This document shows positions 2,243 to 31,815 of a stretch of DNA of 31,815 bases, one piece after another. Origin of the DNA: a virus; the IMG/VR virus record IMGVR_UViG_3300023170_000113, positions 1 through 31,815 of that record; one strand, given 5' to 3'. Numbering within the stretch: the stretch's first letter is position 1; every line of letters begins with the position of its first letter. The position numbers and the translations under genes are program-made. A model generated the notes under the pieces. That model was not told where the DNA came from and did no database searches. It was given only the letters and a program-made list of their open reading frames with translations.

Positions 2243-2398
2243 ATGGGTATTTACTACGATAGGAAACAAAGCTGGCAAACTGAGATGTTAAAAAGAACTC
2301 AGAGACAACGCAGGATGGCCAGCCAAAGGAAGCTAAAAGAGGAAGAGAAAATCTGGCTTGAAAATATGAGAAAGCGGGGCGGGTGTTTTCCTCAATAA
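2243..2398 (+). CDS. Small basic helical protein (51 aa), unknown function
   Basis: ATG 2243 directly follows the stop codon of the upstream gene, with no spacer, so translation is probably coupled. The peptide is rich in Arg, Lys, Gln and Glu, with a central helix-forming stretch (RTQRQRRMASQRKLKEEEK), and ends GGCFPQ. Such composition is compatible with nucleic-acid binding or a short coiled coil, but no family is recognised. Its TAA (2396-2398) lies directly before the first base of the hammerhead ribozyme at 2399, so self-cleavage would leave this message with a structured 3' end right after its stop. Confidence 0.6.
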   Translation: MGIYYDRKQSWQTEMLKRTQRQRRMASQRKLKEEEKIWLENMRKRGGCFPQ

Positions 2399-2464
2399 GT
2401 GACACTGAAGAGACTTCAATAGTCGAAACAAGGGCGACATATTTTTGCCGCCTTTGTATGTCAC
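2399..2464 (+). ncRNA. Hammerhead ribozyme, type I, copy 1
   Basis: All core elements are present in order. Stem I GUGACA (2399-2404) pairs with UGUCAC (2459-2464). The core strand CUGAAGA (2405-2411) fits CUGANGA. Stem II is GACU/AGUC (2412-2415, 2421-2424) with a UCAAU loop, followed by GAA (2425-2427). Stem III runs from A2428 to G2436 and pairs with C2449 to U2457, including one G-U. The cleavage triplet is GUA, predicting a cut between 2458 and 2459. Stem I is the open helix, so the type is I. The element lies between a stop codon and the next gene's leader. Confidence 0.93.
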
Positions 2465-2500
2465 ACAATGACAAACAAACTATTAACAAACGGAGCAAAC

Positions 2501-2923
2501 ATGAATAGACAAAATAAACAAACACCAAGACTTCAAGTGACTGATGAGCCTGTAAAGGTTTGGAAGTATGCTAGAGGCAATAACAACCAAGCCATTTACG
2601 TTGATTATATGAATGTAACTTTTTACATGTCTTATAATACTTGCGTAGCTTTTAGCAGCATATTGACTGGCCTTGTAGTTCAGCAAAATAGCTGGGGAAC
2701 GACTACAGGCGCCCATTTAAATGCTATTGATGGCGGTGACCATTCAAACAGGGTTACAGCTAAAGAGTTTGAAGCTAAATTAGCAGAGATGGAGCAAAAC
2801 CAACGCAGGTCAACTATTGCAGTCTATGAAGTTCTAAAAGAGAAAAAAGAGAAGGAATTTAGAGACTATAGACTTGCAGAGCGTAATAGGCTTAATGCTG
2901 GTTACACTAAAGCAGGCCACTAG
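2501..2923 (+). CDS. Hypothetical early protein (140 aa)
   Basis: ATG 2501 is chosen over the in-frame ATG at 2468 because ACGGAG (2490-2495) sits just upstream and the same leader layout precedes neighbouring genes; the 2468 ATG has no such site and lies only 4 nt past the first ribozyme. The N-terminal half is beta-rich and polar (KVWKYARGNNNQAIYVDYMNV). A middle section, GTTTGAHLNAIDGGD, may be a loop. The C-terminal third, from about residue 88, is strongly charged and helical (KEFEAKLAEMEQNQRRS). No catalytic motif or known family is recognised. The stop TAG (2921-2923) shares its last base with stem I of the second ribozyme. Confidence 0.7.
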   Translation: MNRQNKQTPRLQVTDEPVKVWKYARGNNNQAIYVDYMNVTFYMSYNTCVAFSSILTGLVVQQNSWGTTTGAHLNAIDGGDHSNRVTAKEFEAKLAEMEQNQRRSTIAVYEVLKEKKEKEFRDYRLAERNRLNAGYTKAGH

Positions 2924-2982
2924 CAACACTGAAGAGCTCTTATTGAGCGAAACTGGCAGCCTCAGGGCTGCTAGTCTGTTGC
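2923..2982 (+). ncRNA. Hammerhead ribozyme, type I, copy 2
   Basis: Stem I is GCAACA (2923-2928) with UGUUGC (2977-2982). The core CUGAAGA (2929-2935) is identical to copy 1. Stem II is GCUC/GAGC (2936-2939, 2945-2948) with loop UUAUU, followed by GAA (2949-2951). Stem III pairs 2952-2961 with 2966-2975, including one G-U. The triplet is GUC with the predicted cut between 2976 and 2977. Stem sequences differ from copy 1 but pairing is preserved, which is strong support for a selected RNA fold. Confidence 0.95.
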
Positions 2983-3017
2983 AAAAAGCAACCTAACAAA
3001 TAAACAACGGAGTAACT

Positions 3018-3164
3018 ATGATATGTTATGACTGTGAAAGTATGGAAGGAACCATACTAAAAGAGGCTCAAGAAGAGCCAGAGAAAAACTACAGCTATGC
3101 AGACTTAATGAGAATGACTGAAATTTGCGCCAGCTGCGGTTCTGAAAATATAAAAACAAACTAA
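3018..3164 (+). CDS. Small two-CxxC zinc-ribbon-like protein (48 aa)
   Basis: ATG 3018 follows AACGGAGTAACT, the recurring early-gene leader, and ends at TAA 3162-3164. Two pairs of cysteines, C3-x2-C6 near the start (MICYDC) and C37-x2-C40 near the end (CASCGSEN), are spaced as in a zinc ribbon, with an acidic helical linker between them (KEAQEEPEKNY). The likely fold is a small zinc-stabilised knuckle that could bind nucleic acid or a host protein. Function is unknown. It lies between the second ribozyme and a 70-aa gene with which it should share a transcript. Confidence 0.72.
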   Translation: MICYDCESMEGTILKEAQEEPEKNYSYADLMRMTEICASCGSENIKTN

Positions 3165-3181
3165 CAACGAACGGAGTAAAT

Positions 3182-3394
3182 ATGTACTTTGACAATGTAG
3201 AAATAAAAATACTTAGTAATGACTATGACCGCAAAGGTAAGCCATTTACTATCACAAGCCATGAATTTAATTTTAAAGATGGCGTTAAAGCTAAAGACTT
3301 AGCTAGGTTCTTAGAGGATAGTACGGACTCTTTAGGTTATAGGGCACAAGGCAAAGTCTCAGTTAAAATTGAGATTGATAGCAGGGAAGAGTAA
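3182..3394 (+). CDS. Hypothetical early protein (70 aa)
   Basis: ATG 3182 has the leader AACGGAGTAAAT. The sequence suggests a small beta-alpha-beta domain: strand NVEIKIL, a hairpin with KGKPFTITSHEF, helix VKAKDLARFLEDS and a final strand KVSVKIEID. No family or active site is recognised. The stop TAA (3392-3394) is inside stem I of the third ribozyme, so a ribosome ending translation here would cover or melt that stem. This could link ribozyme folding to translation, an inference from the overlap. Confidence 0.7.
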   Translation: MYFDNVEIKILSNDYDRKGKPFTITSHEFNFKDGVKAKDLARFLEDSTDSLGYRAQGKVSVKIEIDSREE

Positions 3395-3452
3395 CACTGA
3401 AGAGCCTTCAATAGGCGAAACTAGGCGGGCTATTGTCTGCCTAGTCTGTTAC
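3391..3452 (+). ncRNA. Hammerhead ribozyme, type I, copy 3
   Basis: Stem I is GUAACA (3391-3396) with UGUUAC (3447-3452). The core CUGAAGA (3397-3403) is again unchanged. Stem II is GCCU/AGGC (3404-3407, 3413-3416) with loop UCAAU as in copy 1, followed by GAA (3417-3419). Stem III pairs 3420-3428 with 3437-3445, including one G-U. The triplet is GUC and the predicted cut lies between 3446 and 3447. It overlaps the stop codon of the gene before it. Confidence 0.95.
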
Positions 3453-3562
3453 AGTCATAGGACTTGACGGTGACTTTTAAACTTAATATAGGAGTTATTG
3501 ATTTATGCTAGAACTATTCTTACAAATGCCGTTAGAATGTAAAGTCATAGGACTTAGCGGTG
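3453..3562 (+). repeat. Direct repeat, copies 3453-3472 and 3543-3562
   Basis: AGTCATAGGACTT plus CGGTG occurs twice, 90 nt apart, differing only at two bases (GA against AG). AGTC and GACT within each copy can form a small hairpin. The first copy follows the third ribozyme directly; the second is inside the 34-codon gene, where it encodes KVIGLSG. In the corresponding frame the first copy reads VIGLDGDF then stop, which looks like the remnant of a duplicated gene piece. Confidence 0.6.
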
Positions 3563-3609
3563 TTATTTTTTATTTGTGTTTAATAATAGCAACAAAGGAG
3601 AATAATTAA
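3505..3609 (+). CDS. Small membrane protein (34 aa), unknown function
   Basis: ATG 3505 is preceded by ATAGGAG (3488-3494), somewhat far at about 10 nt. The stop TAA (3607-3609) overlaps the ATG of the next gene in a TAATG arrangement, which implies coupling. The peptide begins MLELFLQMPLECK and then has one hydrophobic segment (VIGLSGVIFYLCLIIA) that could span a membrane. Part of the gene is the second copy of a direct repeat. No family is recognised and it could be a leader peptide that feeds ribosomes to the next gene. Confidence 0.45.
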   Translation: MLELFLQMPLECKVIGLSGVIFYLCLIIATKENN

Positions 3610-3871: not shown

Positions 3872-6319
3872 TTGGCTAAACTAATTGAAAGCATGCCTAC
3901 CTACCGTGATGAGCTAGCACATGAAAAAGAAATGGCTGAGCTAGGTAAAAATAGAACTAATAAAAGACTAACATCACATGTCCAAAGAGAAGAGGAAAGT
4001 GTAACCAGCTATGGTAAAGTTATGGTTGCAAACACAATCAGGCCTTTAGCTATGGCTATTGGTGAATGGCTTGAAGAGACATCTAAAAAGACTATTGGTA
4101 AACCACCAATTGCTTTTATGAAACTAGCTGAAGTGGAACCAGAAGTATTAGCATTAATCACTGGTAAACACATTATCAATACAATAACGCAGTACAAACC
4201 ATTGACTGCTACGTGTATATCTCTTGGCGGTAAAATAGAGACTGAGATTTCATTAAGAAATTTTAAAAGTTTAAATCCTGAACTTTACGAAACAGTAAAG
4301 GCAGACTTAGACAAACGGTCTTTTAATTACACCTACAAAAGAAGGAAGCTAAGAGAAAGCGCTAAGCGTGATGAAGTGATGAAATGGGAAGAATGGACTA
4401 CACCTGTTAAATTACATGTCGGTATCAGACTTGTTGAACTTATGATTTATGCAACAGGTTTAATTGAAATAGGAACGGAAACAGTTAAACATAAAAAAGC
4501 TAAAATCATAAAACAAACTGAGAAGACCAGAGAGTGGATTAAAAATAGAAATGGTTTTAATGAACTATTAAACCCAGAGTATCTACCCACAGTGATGCCG
4601 CCAAAGGCGTGGTCAACTGTAACAGGCGGTGGGTATTGGACTAAAGAGTTACCTGAGCTGGACTTGGTAAAGCAAAAGAACAAGTTGTTTAAAAAAGAAC
4701 TTGAGAATTTTGACATGCCAGAGGTTTACAGTGCAGTTAACACAATGCAAAACACTCCATATAAAATTAATAAGTTTATTTTACATGTTATGCAAGAGGC
4801 TTGGGACAAAGGATTAGCTGTAGGGGGTATGCCGCCTAATGTTAATTATGATATTCCAAACAAACCACATGACATTGAGACAAACTCTGCGAGCAGAAAA
4901 GAATGGAAGAAGAAAGCAGTCATGGTGCATACTGAAAATGCTAGGATGTTTTCTAAAAGATTACTTTATGCTAAAATTATGTGGCTTGCTGATAAGTTTA
5001 AGGACTATGCAACATTATACTTTCCACTGCAATTAGATTTTAGAGGAAGAGCATATTGTGTACCAGCCTTTTTAAACTATCAAAGTATTACAGGTGCTAA
5101 AGCTTTATTGTCGTTTGCACATGGTAAAGAAATCACAAAAGAAAACAAAGGTGATTATTGGCTTGCTATTCATGGAGCCAACATGTTTGGTGAAGATAAA
5201 ATATCTTTGCAAGAGCGTGTTGAATGGGTAAACAAAAATGAAGACTGGATATTAAAATGTGCTGAAGACCCAATGAATAATAGAAAATGGGAAGATGCAT
5301 CAAATGCATATCAGTTCTTAGCTTTTTGTGATGAGTGGAGTAAGTTTAAAAAAGAAGGCTATGGATTTGTGTCTCATATTCCAGTGAGTGTTGATGGTTC
5401 ATGTAATGGACTACAAGTTTACTCATTGATGTTAAGAGACAGCAAAGCTGGTAAGCTAGTTAATTTATTACCTACAGATAAACCACAAGACATCTATCAA
5501 TTAGTTGCTGATGCAGTTATTGAAAAACTAAAAGTTGATGCAGCAGAGAATAAACCGTATGCTCAGTTGTGGCTTGATTATGGTATTAAACGTTCAACAA
5601 CAAAACGTAGTATTATGACTATTTGTTATGGTTCAACAAGATACTCATGTACAGACTTTGTGATTGAAGATTTAACTAAACGAAAAGACAAGGGTGAAAA
5701 CCATCCATTTACAGATGACCTTTTTAGGCCTGCAAGTTATCTTGCTGGTGTTATCTGGGAAAGTATTGGTGACAATCTTAAGTCTGCTAGAATTGGAATG
5801 GATTATTTACAAACCATTGCAAGAGTAGTGGCTAGAGAACAATTACCTGTACACTGGGTTACACCTGTTGGCTTTCCTGTTTATCAGTCTTATCCTGAAA
5901 TGAAATCAAAAAGGGTTAAGGCAATGTTAATGGGTGAGGTGATTAAACCTAGAATAAACACTGAGACAGACTTAACAGATAAGTTAAGAATGGGTAACGG
6001 TGTTGCACCTAATCTTGTGCATAGTGTTGACAGCGCAGCAATGATGAAGACTGTTAACATAGCACATAAAAATGGTATCAAAAACTTTTGCAATGTGCAT
6101 GACAGTTTTGGTACTACGGCTGGTGATGTGGAAGTTTTAAACCAGTCGTTAAGACAGGCATTTATTACAATGTTTACTGAACATGATATTTTATCAGAGT
6201 TTAGAAATGATGTAATGAAACAACTACCTGTTGAACTTCATGCTAAATTACCAGAAGTCCCTAACAAGGGTGATTTAGACATTAACCAACTTAGGGACAG
6301 TGAGTTCTTTTTTGCTTAA
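3872..6319 (+). CDS. Single-subunit DNA-directed RNA polymerase (T7 gp1-like)
   Basis: This 815-residue enzyme transcribes the phage's middle and late genes. The palm and fingers motifs are intact: DFRGRAYCVP, motif A VDGSCNG with D508, motif B KRSTTKRSIMTICYGS with K578 and Y586 in the same 8-residue spacing as T7 K631 and Y639, and motif C VHDSFGT with D744. The C-terminus EFFFA corresponds to the FAFA foot of T7. T7 RNA polymerase has 883 residues, so this version is shorter, mostly before motif A. The start is TTG 3872, chosen because AAAGGAG lies 7 nt upstream; a TTG start may limit its translation. A promoter-like site precedes it and another follows. Confidence 0.97.
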   Translation: MAKLIESMPTYRDELAHEKEMAELGKNRTNKRLTSHVQREEESVTSYGKVMVANTIRPLAMAIGEWLEETSKKTIGKPPIAFMKLAEVEPEVLALITGKHIINTITQYKPLTATCISLGGKIETEISLRNFKSLNPELYETVKADLDKRSFNYTYKRRKLRESAKRDEVMKWEEWTTPVKLHVGIRLVELMIYATGLIEIGTETVKHKKAKIIKQTEKTREWIKNRNGFNELLNPEYLPTVMPPKAWSTVTGGGYWTKELPELDLVKQKNKLFKKELENFDMPEVYSAVNTMQNTPYKINKFILHVMQEAWDKGLAVGGMPPNVNYDIPNKPHDIETNSASRKEWKKKAVMVHTENARMFSKRLLYAKIMWLADKFKDYATLYFPLQLDFRGRAYCVPAFLNYQSITGAKALLSFAHGKEITKENKGDYWLAIHGANMFGEDKISLQERVEWVNKNEDWILKCAEDPMNNRKWEDASNAYQFLAFCDEWSKFKKEGYGFVSHIPVSVDGSCNGLQVYSLMLRDSKAGKLVNLLPTDKPQDIYQLVADAVIEKLKVDAAENKPYAQLWLDYGIKRSTTKRSIMTICYGSTRYSCTDFVIEDLTKRKDKGENHPFTDDLFRPASYLAGVIWESIGDNLKSARIGMDYLQTIARVVAREQLPVHWVTPVGFPVYQSYPEMKSKRVKAMLMGEVIKPRINTETDLTDKLRMGNGVAPNLVHSVDSAAMMKTVNIAHKNGIKNFCNVHDSFGTTAGDVEVLNQSLRQAFITMFTEHDILSEFRNDVMKQLPVELHAKLPEVPNKGDLDINQLRDSEFFFA

Positions 6320-30304: not shown

Positions 30305-31815
30305 ATGGCTAATTCATTTGTAAGATATACGGGTAACGGCTCCACAGCCGCATACGCTATCCCTTTTTCTTACAGAAGTGCTGATGATTTATCAGCTACA
30401 GTTAATGGTGTAAATGTCACAGCTTACACTTTAGACGCTGCTGGTACTACATTAACATTTGATACAGCGCCTGCTGACCAAGCAGCTATTGAAATCAGAC
30501 GTACTACAAGTCAATCTACTAAATTAGTTGACTATGTATCAGGCTCAGTATTAACTGAGAATGATTTAGATACAGATTCTGACCAAGCATTTTATATGTC
30601 TCAAGAAGCTATTGACAAAGCTGGAGACGTTATCACACTTGATAATGCTGACTTTCAATGGGATGTACAGAACAAAAGATTAAAAAATGTTGCGGCACCT
30701 ACGGCCGACACAGATGCTGTTAACAAAGCATTTATTTCAACAAATTTACCTAACATCACAACGGTAGCTAGTATCAGCAGTGATGTTACTACAGTTGCGG
30801 GCATTAGCTCTGACGTAGAGACGGTAGCCGATAATGACACAAATATTACTACTGTTGCTGATAACATTAGTTCTGTTAACACTGTAGCAACAAATATATC
30901 TGACGTTATAAAAGTCGCTGATGACTTAAATGAAGCAATATCTGAAGTAGAGACTGTTGCTAACGACTTGAATGAAGCTACATCAGAAATTGAAACAGTT
31001 GCTAATAATATTGATAATGTTAATACAGTCGGAACTAACATTGCCAATGTTAACACAGTAGCTGGTAATGATACAAATATTACAACAGTTGCTGGTAATA
31101 ATGCTAACATTTCTACAGTAGCAGGTATTTCAAGCAACGTAACAACAGTTGCAGGTATTTCTTCAGACGTTACAGCAGTTGCAGGTGATGCGACTGATAT
31201 TGGAACTGTTGCCACAGATATTTCAAATGTAAATTCAGTTGCTACTAATATCGCTGATGTAAACACAGTAGCAGGAAATAATGCTAACATTACAACGGTA
31301 GCAGGAGTAAACGCAGACGTTACGACTGTTGCAGGTATTTCTTCTGATGTAACTTCAGTTGCAAATAATAATGCAAACGTAACCACAGTTGCAGGTTCAA
31401 TCGCTAACGTAAACAATGTTGGTGGAGATATTGCCAACGTAAATACAGTTGCTTCTAACTTAGCATCAGTCAATAATTTTGGAGAAGTTTATAGAATTTC
31501 AGCAACTGCACCTACTACATCTTTAGATGATGGAGATATGTGGTTTGACACTACAGCTTCTAAATTAAAAATATGGAATGGTTCATCATTTGATTTAGCG
31601 GGTTCATCAATCAATGGTACTTCAGCAAGATTTAAATACACAGCAACAGCAAGTCAGACAACATTTACTGGTGCTGATGATAACGGAAACACTCTTGCTT
31701 ATGATGCAGGTTATATTGATGTCTATTTAAACGGAGTACACTTAGACCCATCAGATTATACAGCAACAGACGGAAGTACAATTACACTTAATTCTGGTGC
31801 AACTTTAAATGACGA
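30305..31815 (+). CDS. Tail fibre protein (T7 gp17-like), 3' truncated by window
   Basis: The frame is open from ATG 30305 to the window end, giving about 503 residues so far. The N-terminal ~140 residues are the T7 tail-fibre attachment domain: SFVRYTGNGSTAAYAIPFSY, the AYTLDAAGTTLTF strand, then LTENDLDTDSDQAFYMSQEAID and NKRLKNVAAPTADTDAVNK. A run of 10-residue repeats follows (residues 147-394), then DDGDMWFDTTASKLKIWNG, a beta motif frequent in phage fibres. The C-terminal receptor-binding part is outside the window. The promoter-like site just upstream suggests separate expression. Confidence 0.92.
   Translation, partial: MANSFVRYTGNGSTAAYAIPFSYRSADDLSATVNGVNVTAYTLDAAGTTLTFDTAPADQAAIEIRRTTSQSTKLVDYVSGSVLTENDLDTDSDQAFYMSQEAIDKAGDVITLDNADFQWDVQNKRLKNVAAPTADTDAVNKAFISTNLPNITTVASISSDVTTVAGISSDVETVADNDTNITTVADNISSVNTVATNISDVIKVADDLNEAISEVETVANDLNEATSEIETVANNIDNVNTVGTNIANVNTVAGNDTNITTVAGNNANISTVAGISSNVTTVAGISSDVTAVAGDATDIGTVATDISNVNSVATNIADVNTVAGNNANITTVAGVNADVTTVAGISSDVTSVANNNANVTTVAGSIANVNNVGGDIANVNTVASNLASVNNFGEVYRISATAPTTSLDDGDMWFDTTASKLKIWNGSSFDLAGSSINGTSARFKYTATASQTTFTGADDNGNTLAYDAGYIDVYLNGVHLDPSDYTATDGSTITLNSGATLND
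30743..31486 (+). repeat. Decapeptide repeat array in tail fibre (about 24 units)
   Basis: The coding sequence has a 30-bp period that encodes units of the type xxxVxTVAxN. There are 22 units of 10 residues and two of 14 (DLNEAISEVETVAN and DLNEATSEIETVAN). The Val/Ile and Ala positions are strictly spaced, which suggests a regular beta-solenoid or trimeric shaft. Repeat number is likely to vary between relatives. Confidence 0.85.

Follow-up and report, generated by a model that had tools for sequence, protein, structure and literature searches.

The window, by which we mean the whole 31,815-nucleotide stretch of DNA analysed here, is a 31.8-kb virus record from a T7-like Pelagivirus phage infecting SAR11. 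The product of its T7-type single-subunit RNA polymerase (RNAP) gene is 84–87% identical to the RNAPs of HTVC168P, Eistla, HTVC031P and HTVC142P, which are listed in GenBank under Autographiviridae, Pelagivirus, with Candidatus Pelagibacter as hosts. An earlier note on this DNA had placed the locus in the early region of a T7-like phage, and this placement is supported. The locus is arranged as follows, with the hammerhead ribozymes referred to as HHR1–HHR3:

2243–2398, plus strand: 51-aa ORF; its stop codon ends directly before the first base of HHR1
2399–2464, plus strand: HHR1, type I hammerhead; H17 is A2458, predicted cut 2458/2459
2459–2473, plus strand: strand-switch hairpin after HHR1, TGTCA-cacaa-TGACA, which reuses the 3′ strand of stem I
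2501–2923, plus strand: 140-aa early protein with a weak match to PHROG 5643 (unknown function); the gene starts 42 nt past cut 1 and its stop codon ends at the first base of HHR2
2923–2982, plus strand: HHR2, type I hammerhead; H17 is C2976, predicted cut 2976/2977
2978–2992, plus strand: strand-switch hairpin after HHR2, GTTGC-aaaaa-GCAAC
3018–3164, plus strand: 48-aa Cys-rich small protein, starting 41 nt past cut 2
3182–3394, plus strand: 70-aa ORF; its stop codon, TAA, lies within stem I of HHR3
3391–3452, plus strand: HHR3, type I hammerhead; H17 is C3446, predicted cut 3446/3447
3447–3468, plus strand: weak strand-switch hairpin after HHR3, GTTA (3448–3451) with TGAC (3465–3468)
3505–3609, plus strand: 34-aa hydrophobic small ORF, starting 58 nt past cut 3
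3872–6319, plus strand: RNAP gene

Protein-family searches returned no function for the early genes between the window's ribozymes, and scans for host promoter and terminator consensus sequences gave no more matches than in shuffled sequence. Downstream of HHR3, a predicted hairpin at 3469–3499 (GGTGACTTTT...AGGAGTTATT) pairs the Shine–Dalgarno (SD) sequence AGGAG of the small ORF at 3505, and an imperfect direct repeat, GTCATAGGACTT(GA/AG)CGGTG, occurs at 3453–3474, after HHR3, and at 3541–3562, inside the 34-aa ORF. At the far end of the window, a tail-fibre-like gene (30760–31470) contains degenerate repeat units of the GTTGCAGG/AATGTTAACACAGT type; the window ends inside this gene.

HHR1 consists of stem I (2399–2404/2459–2464, GTGACA/TGTCAC), the core strand CTGAAGA (2405–2411), stem II (2412–2415/2421–2424, GACT/AGTC) with loop TCAAT, GAA (2425–2427), a 9-bp stem III (2428–2436/2449–2457) and GTA. 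HHR2 has stem I GCAACA/TGTTGC, CTGAAGA, stem II GCTC/GAGC, an 11-bp stem III and GTC, and HHR3 has stem I GTAACA/TGTTAC, CTGAAGA, stem II GCCT/AGGC, an 11-bp stem III and GTC. All three thus have the hammerhead core, made up of CTGAAGA, GAAA, a paired A15.1–U16.1 and an H17 (A, C and C, respectively) that is not G, surrounded by three stems of 6, 4 and 9–11 bp, with stem I open. The earlier note had placed three type I hammerheads at these positions, and we found every element present and in order, with the predicted cuts after 2458, 2976 and 3446 in agreement. Three matches to the core pattern occur in the window, against none in 100 dinucleotide shuffles, and the full hammerhead scanner gave no matches in 1.05 Mb of shuffled sequence. 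When the RNAs were folded, the minimum-energy structure of each was the three-way junction (z = −4.1, −3.9 and −4.4 for HHR1, HHR2 and HHR3).

A covariance search with the Rfam models, which the earlier note had proposed both as a check and as a possible refutation, gave no match in the window at gathering cut-offs. The best family below threshold was RAGATH-1-hammerhead (RF03152), at 29.0 and 26.6 bits; membership in this family was rejected, its gathering score being 56.3. Among 15 related loci with dozens of complete hammerheads, one copy passed (L097, RF00163, 36.1 bits; cut-off 34). Since only one of dozens of equally complete relatives passes, we attribute the failure to match the window copies to the Rfam cut-offs, and since that sole pass is to Hammerhead_1, we take the family to be the type I hammerhead, with most phage copies falling below the cut-off. 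The gathering score of RF00163 is a database cut-off and not a biochemical feature. The window copies and their relatives have the same core and open stem I as RF00163, but the window copies and most relatives score below its cut-off and have in common a UNAAU loop II and a stem I of 6 bp with an A at either flank.

Because Rfam yielded almost nothing, the motif was tested with our own scanner and our own covariance model. This independent model was trained on 11 hammerheads, all from other phages, in which 176 of 176 cells were paired and 10 of 16 pairs had changed on both sides. Stem sequences also differ among the window copies, with pairing kept, so the compensated stems described in the earlier note stand. 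Searched against the window, the model found exactly HHR1–3, with rough E-values of 4.6e-12, 3.1e-7 and 4.5e-6; the score of HHR2 was 48.6 bits. The same model (R1) scores too low for copies with a long stem III or GTAACA stems, and for this reason the hammerhead counts given below were taken from the strict scanner. The shuffles, the scanner null and the independent model together rule out a chance origin, and on sequence and predicted fold HHR1–3 are real type I hammerheads. No type III hammerhead was found in the window, even when relaxed cores were included.

Contig scans and named phage records yielded 339 type I matches, 171 of them nonredundant; many of the loci are related, and these counts do not represent independent events. 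In every locus with more than one copy, all copies lie on the same strand (99/99). To sample without reference to the motif, contigs were chosen by their RNA polymerase, giving 27 with at least 2.3 kb upstream of the gene. Type I hammerheads were present in 20 of these, type III in 13 and either type in 23, all upstream of RNAP and on the RNAP strand, with none on the minus strand. Cultured phages gave a similar picture: 11 of 12 Pelagivirus genomes or early regions checked contain a hammerhead, in the early region and always on the coding strand, including a type I copy at 2297–2359 in HTVC022P (MH598798; predicted cut 2353/2354) and type I copies in HTVC168P, HTVC142P and Eistla; all are unannotated in their records. 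The strict scan found no hammerhead in HTVC105P, none in the early regions of four other marine T7-like phages and T7 (0/5), and no type I copy outside the early region in six cultured genomes scanned in full. A search of openly available papers found no report of hammerheads in pelagiphages.

Some individual copies depart from the common form. Those at 6164–6224 in L200, 1288–1348 in L201 and 5039–5071 in L184 look decayed, with a mismatch at the base of stem II or a lost core; in L200 and L201, a perfect TTTTGC-aaaaa-GCAAAA switch hairpin is still present. The type I copy at 2070–2154 in HTVC031P (L126) has a loop II enlarged to 28 nt with an inner hairpin, which could be a sensor or a mere insertion. 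A 5.8-kb contig from an Aliivibrio MAG (L323), probably phage-derived, carries eight to nine type I hammerheads, all on the same strand.

The type I copies share a characteristic anatomy. Of 171 copies, 152 have a stem I of exactly 6 bp, with A at the two flanks in 143 and 139 of these 152. Loop II is UNAAU, with U1 and U5 present in 108 of 109, and together with the A flanks it suggests a contact between loop II and stem I. The ribozymes are also strictly placed relative to the genes. An upstream stop codon ends between −10 and +9 of stem I in 108 of 166 type I copies (null 11.5). For start codons that have an SD-like motif and lie 15–80 nt past the cut, the count is 110 of 166 (null 25.8). 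The window follows the same plan, with stop codons that overlap or abut stem I. The complete order of stop codon, ribozyme, SD motif and start codon occurs in 77 of 166 copies, where 2.2 would be expected (max 6). This anatomy fits the mRNA processing system proposed in the earlier note; the note's further suggestion, that the hammerheads replace the host RNase III cuts, may be taken as a fair analogy.

The same observations bear on whether the ribozymes might play no part in expression and be decaying passengers of some mobile or selfish RNA. Retroelements elsewhere commonly contain hammerheads, and the patchy loss, seen for example in HTVC105P, and the broken look of some copies would suit such an origin. 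However, the stems keep compensating, the copies hold a strict position with respect to stop and start codons, they are always on the coding strand and, in the contigs and complete genomes covered, confined to the early region, and there is no mobile-element gene beside the window's copies. We consider this explanation extremely unlikely.

Immediately downstream of many type I copies, the 3′ strand of stem I can pair with a second partner, a further copy of the 5′ strand, and a strand-switch hairpin was counted where at least 5 bp could form with a loop of 3–8 nt. After HHR1, this hairpin is the minimum-energy structure of the 42-nt product (−3.5 kcal/mol) and would form the 5′ end of the next mRNA. 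For HHR2, the switch hairpin and the intact hammerhead fold are about equal in energy in the uncut RNA. The weak hairpin after HHR3 encloses an inner hairpin, AGTC-atag-GACT; it is not significant alone, and the minimum-energy structure predicted for the uncut RNA lacks it. Among the 171 copies, 45 have a switch hairpin, compared to 7.5 (max 14) when copies exchanged strands and 5.5 when the flanks were shuffled, and a mirror control upstream of the same 171 copies gave none. The downstream strand follows the stem: GCAAC occurs after 15 of 29 TGTTGC stems and GTAAC never, while GTAAC occurs after 11 of 34 TGTTAC stems and GCAAC never. Likewise, TATTGC stems are followed by GCAAT in 4 of 4 cases and TTAGAC stems by GTCTA in 5 of 8. 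Strict deduplication lowered the excess to 15 of 83 versus 2.7 (max 9), but the effect held, and within TGTTAC and TGTTGC stems it was 13 of 27 versus 0. The three strands, that is, both strands of stem I and the downstream copy, thus covary far above controls. In copy 2 of the close relative L105, which is homologous to HHR2, all three strands have changed such that the hairpin is kept and cross-pairing is lost. About three quarters of the nonredundant copies have no clear switch hairpin.

The uncut RNAs of L105 and L124 have the switch hairpin, rather than stem I, in their minimum-energy fold, and the hairpin could therefore also lower cleavage. The main rival to a reading in which the RNA is cut and then refolds is that the hairpin acts mainly as an off-switch, taking stem I apart unless the ribozyme cuts at once, so that cleavage would hang on the speed of transcription or on a ribosome terminating on the stop codon at stem I. 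The balance of the two folds in HHR2 and the stop codons in or beside stem I or the core are in keeping with this. On the other hand, stem I is synthesized before the 3′ strand of the hairpin, so the hammerhead folds first, and hammerheads with loop contacts usually cut fast. We regard the off-switch as unlikely. Given this order of synthesis, the simplest interpretation is that the RNA cuts rapidly and then refolds, and the downstream RNA probably refolds after cleavage into a 5′-terminal hairpin resembling that of RiboJ.

Tandem type I copies on one strand are also the layout of retrozymes, and a segment of 518 or 470 nt released by two neighboring cuts might be re-ligated via a hybrid hammerhead into a small circular RNA. 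The 3′ strand of HHR2 (TGTTGC) does pair with the 5′ strand of HHR3 (GTAACA) at 6 of 6 positions, one of them G–U, but the corresponding strands of HHR1 and HHR2 pair at just 4 of 6. Moreover, the copies lie between different genes and have three different stem I sequences, with no repeats of one element, and the switch hairpin would mask the ligating strand. In retrozymes the hammerheads lie within the repeats of one mobile element; with different stem I sequences beside different phage genes, the window copies were not assigned to them. A 2011 study of prophage hammerheads looked for RNAs that had been spliced or circularized and found none (PMC3088659). We consider circular RNAs very unlikely.

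Type III hammerheads, which are circularly permuted so that stem III is the open one, were sought with a second scanner in the same loci as type I; it found 72 distinct copies, compared to one in 3.08 Mb of shuffled sequence. In cultured phages these lie, unannotated, in the leader or the first intergenic gaps of the early region:

HTVC168P (L125), 39714–39775: type III, at the genome end, just before gene 1
HTVC142P (L127), 39623–39676: type III, at the genome end, just before gene 1
HTVC031P (L126), 40979–41033 (genome end) and 291–341: type III
HTVC019P (L129), 972–1028: type III
HTVC021P (L344), 464–521: type III

Positions 308–359 of HTVC031P were considered as a broken type I copy, which was rejected in favor of the intact type III copy at 291–341. 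In the 68 loci with both types, many of them related, all copies are on the same strand, and every type III precedes every type I in 63 of the 68; of the five exceptions, three are explained by the copies at the genome ends of HTVC168P, HTVC142P and HTVC031P. None of 49 type III copies lies at a stop codon, versus 108 of 166 for type I, and type III copies end a median of 22 nt before the next start. With a type III cut the ribozyme stays with the downstream RNA, whereas with a type I cut it stays with the upstream RNA.

Taken together, we think it likely that type I hammerheads cut the early polycistronic transcript at gene boundaries and that the strands then refold. The transcript would be cut during its synthesis. 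At each cut, the upstream message would keep stem-loops II and III as a hairpin that caps its 3′ end, and the downstream message would gain a 5′-OH end a short way ahead of its ribosome-binding site. Once released, the 3′ strand of stem I would pair with the nearby copy of the 5′ strand; this refolding should drive product release, block re-ligation and give the new message a 5′-terminal hairpin. In many related phages, a type III hammerhead would cut in the leader, so that the first message would begin with this ribozyme and its stem I hairpin. The layout suggests that the RNA would in this way divide itself into messages of one gene each, with protective hairpins at the cut ends. The sequences themselves show the motifs, how they are conserved, where and on which strand they lie, and the covariation of the three strands. 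Cleavage in cells, the order of refolding and the effects on stability and translation are what we infer from the sequences.

The early polycistronic mRNA of T7 is cut between genes by host RNase III, which leaves hairpins at the 3′ ends. The pelagiphages are likewise T7-like, with predicted cuts between early genes, but processing in T7 depends on a host protein enzyme, whereas here it would be done by self-cleaving RNA. Clustered hammerheads in bacterial prophages were described by Perreault et al. in 2011, who proposed processing of long transcripts and showed that three tandem arrangements cleave themselves in vitro and that the one from A. tumefaciens also does so in E. coli (PMC3088659). 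As in the pelagiphages, several hammerheads there flank single genes or gene blocks. Those cases are prophages of other bacteria, and the sections consulted mention no SAR11 phages, strand-switch hairpin, stop-codon placement or type III-then-I order. The same paper describes a variant hammerhead in haloviruses HF1/HF2; it lies in the early region, and a transcript 5′ end was mapped within three nt of its predicted cut. Like the window phage, HF1/HF2 are lytic and have the hammerhead in the early region, but they are archaeal viruses with a variant core, as opposed to the canonical core and tandem copies found here. Tandem prophage hammerheads and the processing idea have thus been known since 2011; the phage group, the division between types I and III and the strand switch are new. 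The earlier note had included neither the strand-switch hairpin, the type III copies in relatives and the wide distribution, nor the 2011 prophage report.

The closest likeness to the hairpin itself is a synthetic insulator, RiboJ, composed of a hammerhead, a hairpin and a ribosome-binding site, which raises transcript level about twofold (PMC6206723). The pelagiphage copies have the same order of elements and a predicted hairpin on the 5′ end of the message, but RiboJ was engineered from the sTRSV satellite ribozyme and has its hairpin added as a separate element, whereas the pelagiphage hairpin reuses the 3′ strand of stem I.

The role of natural phage hammerheads has been in question since 2011, and as late as 2023 a paper described their gene associations as unexplained (PMC10085705). 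Pelagiphages of the HTVC019P type are prevalent in the ocean, and HTVC022P has been followed through infection of HTCC1062 by an RNA-seq time course (PMC12753301); with such phages also in culture, the processing idea is therefore testable now. The strand-switch hairpin offers a specific mechanism, one that base changes can disrupt and then repair, and a natural counterpart to a widely used synthetic insulator. More tentatively, and as something we hold to be possible rather than probable, SAR11 phages and their relatives may mature their mRNAs without enzymes, by means of a single ribozyme in two circular permutations: a leader type III hammerhead would form the 5′ end of the first message, type I hammerheads at stop codons would form the 3′ ends, and the 3′ stem strand would be handed to a prepared partner as a 5′-terminal hairpin on the next message, making the reaction irreversible and one-way.
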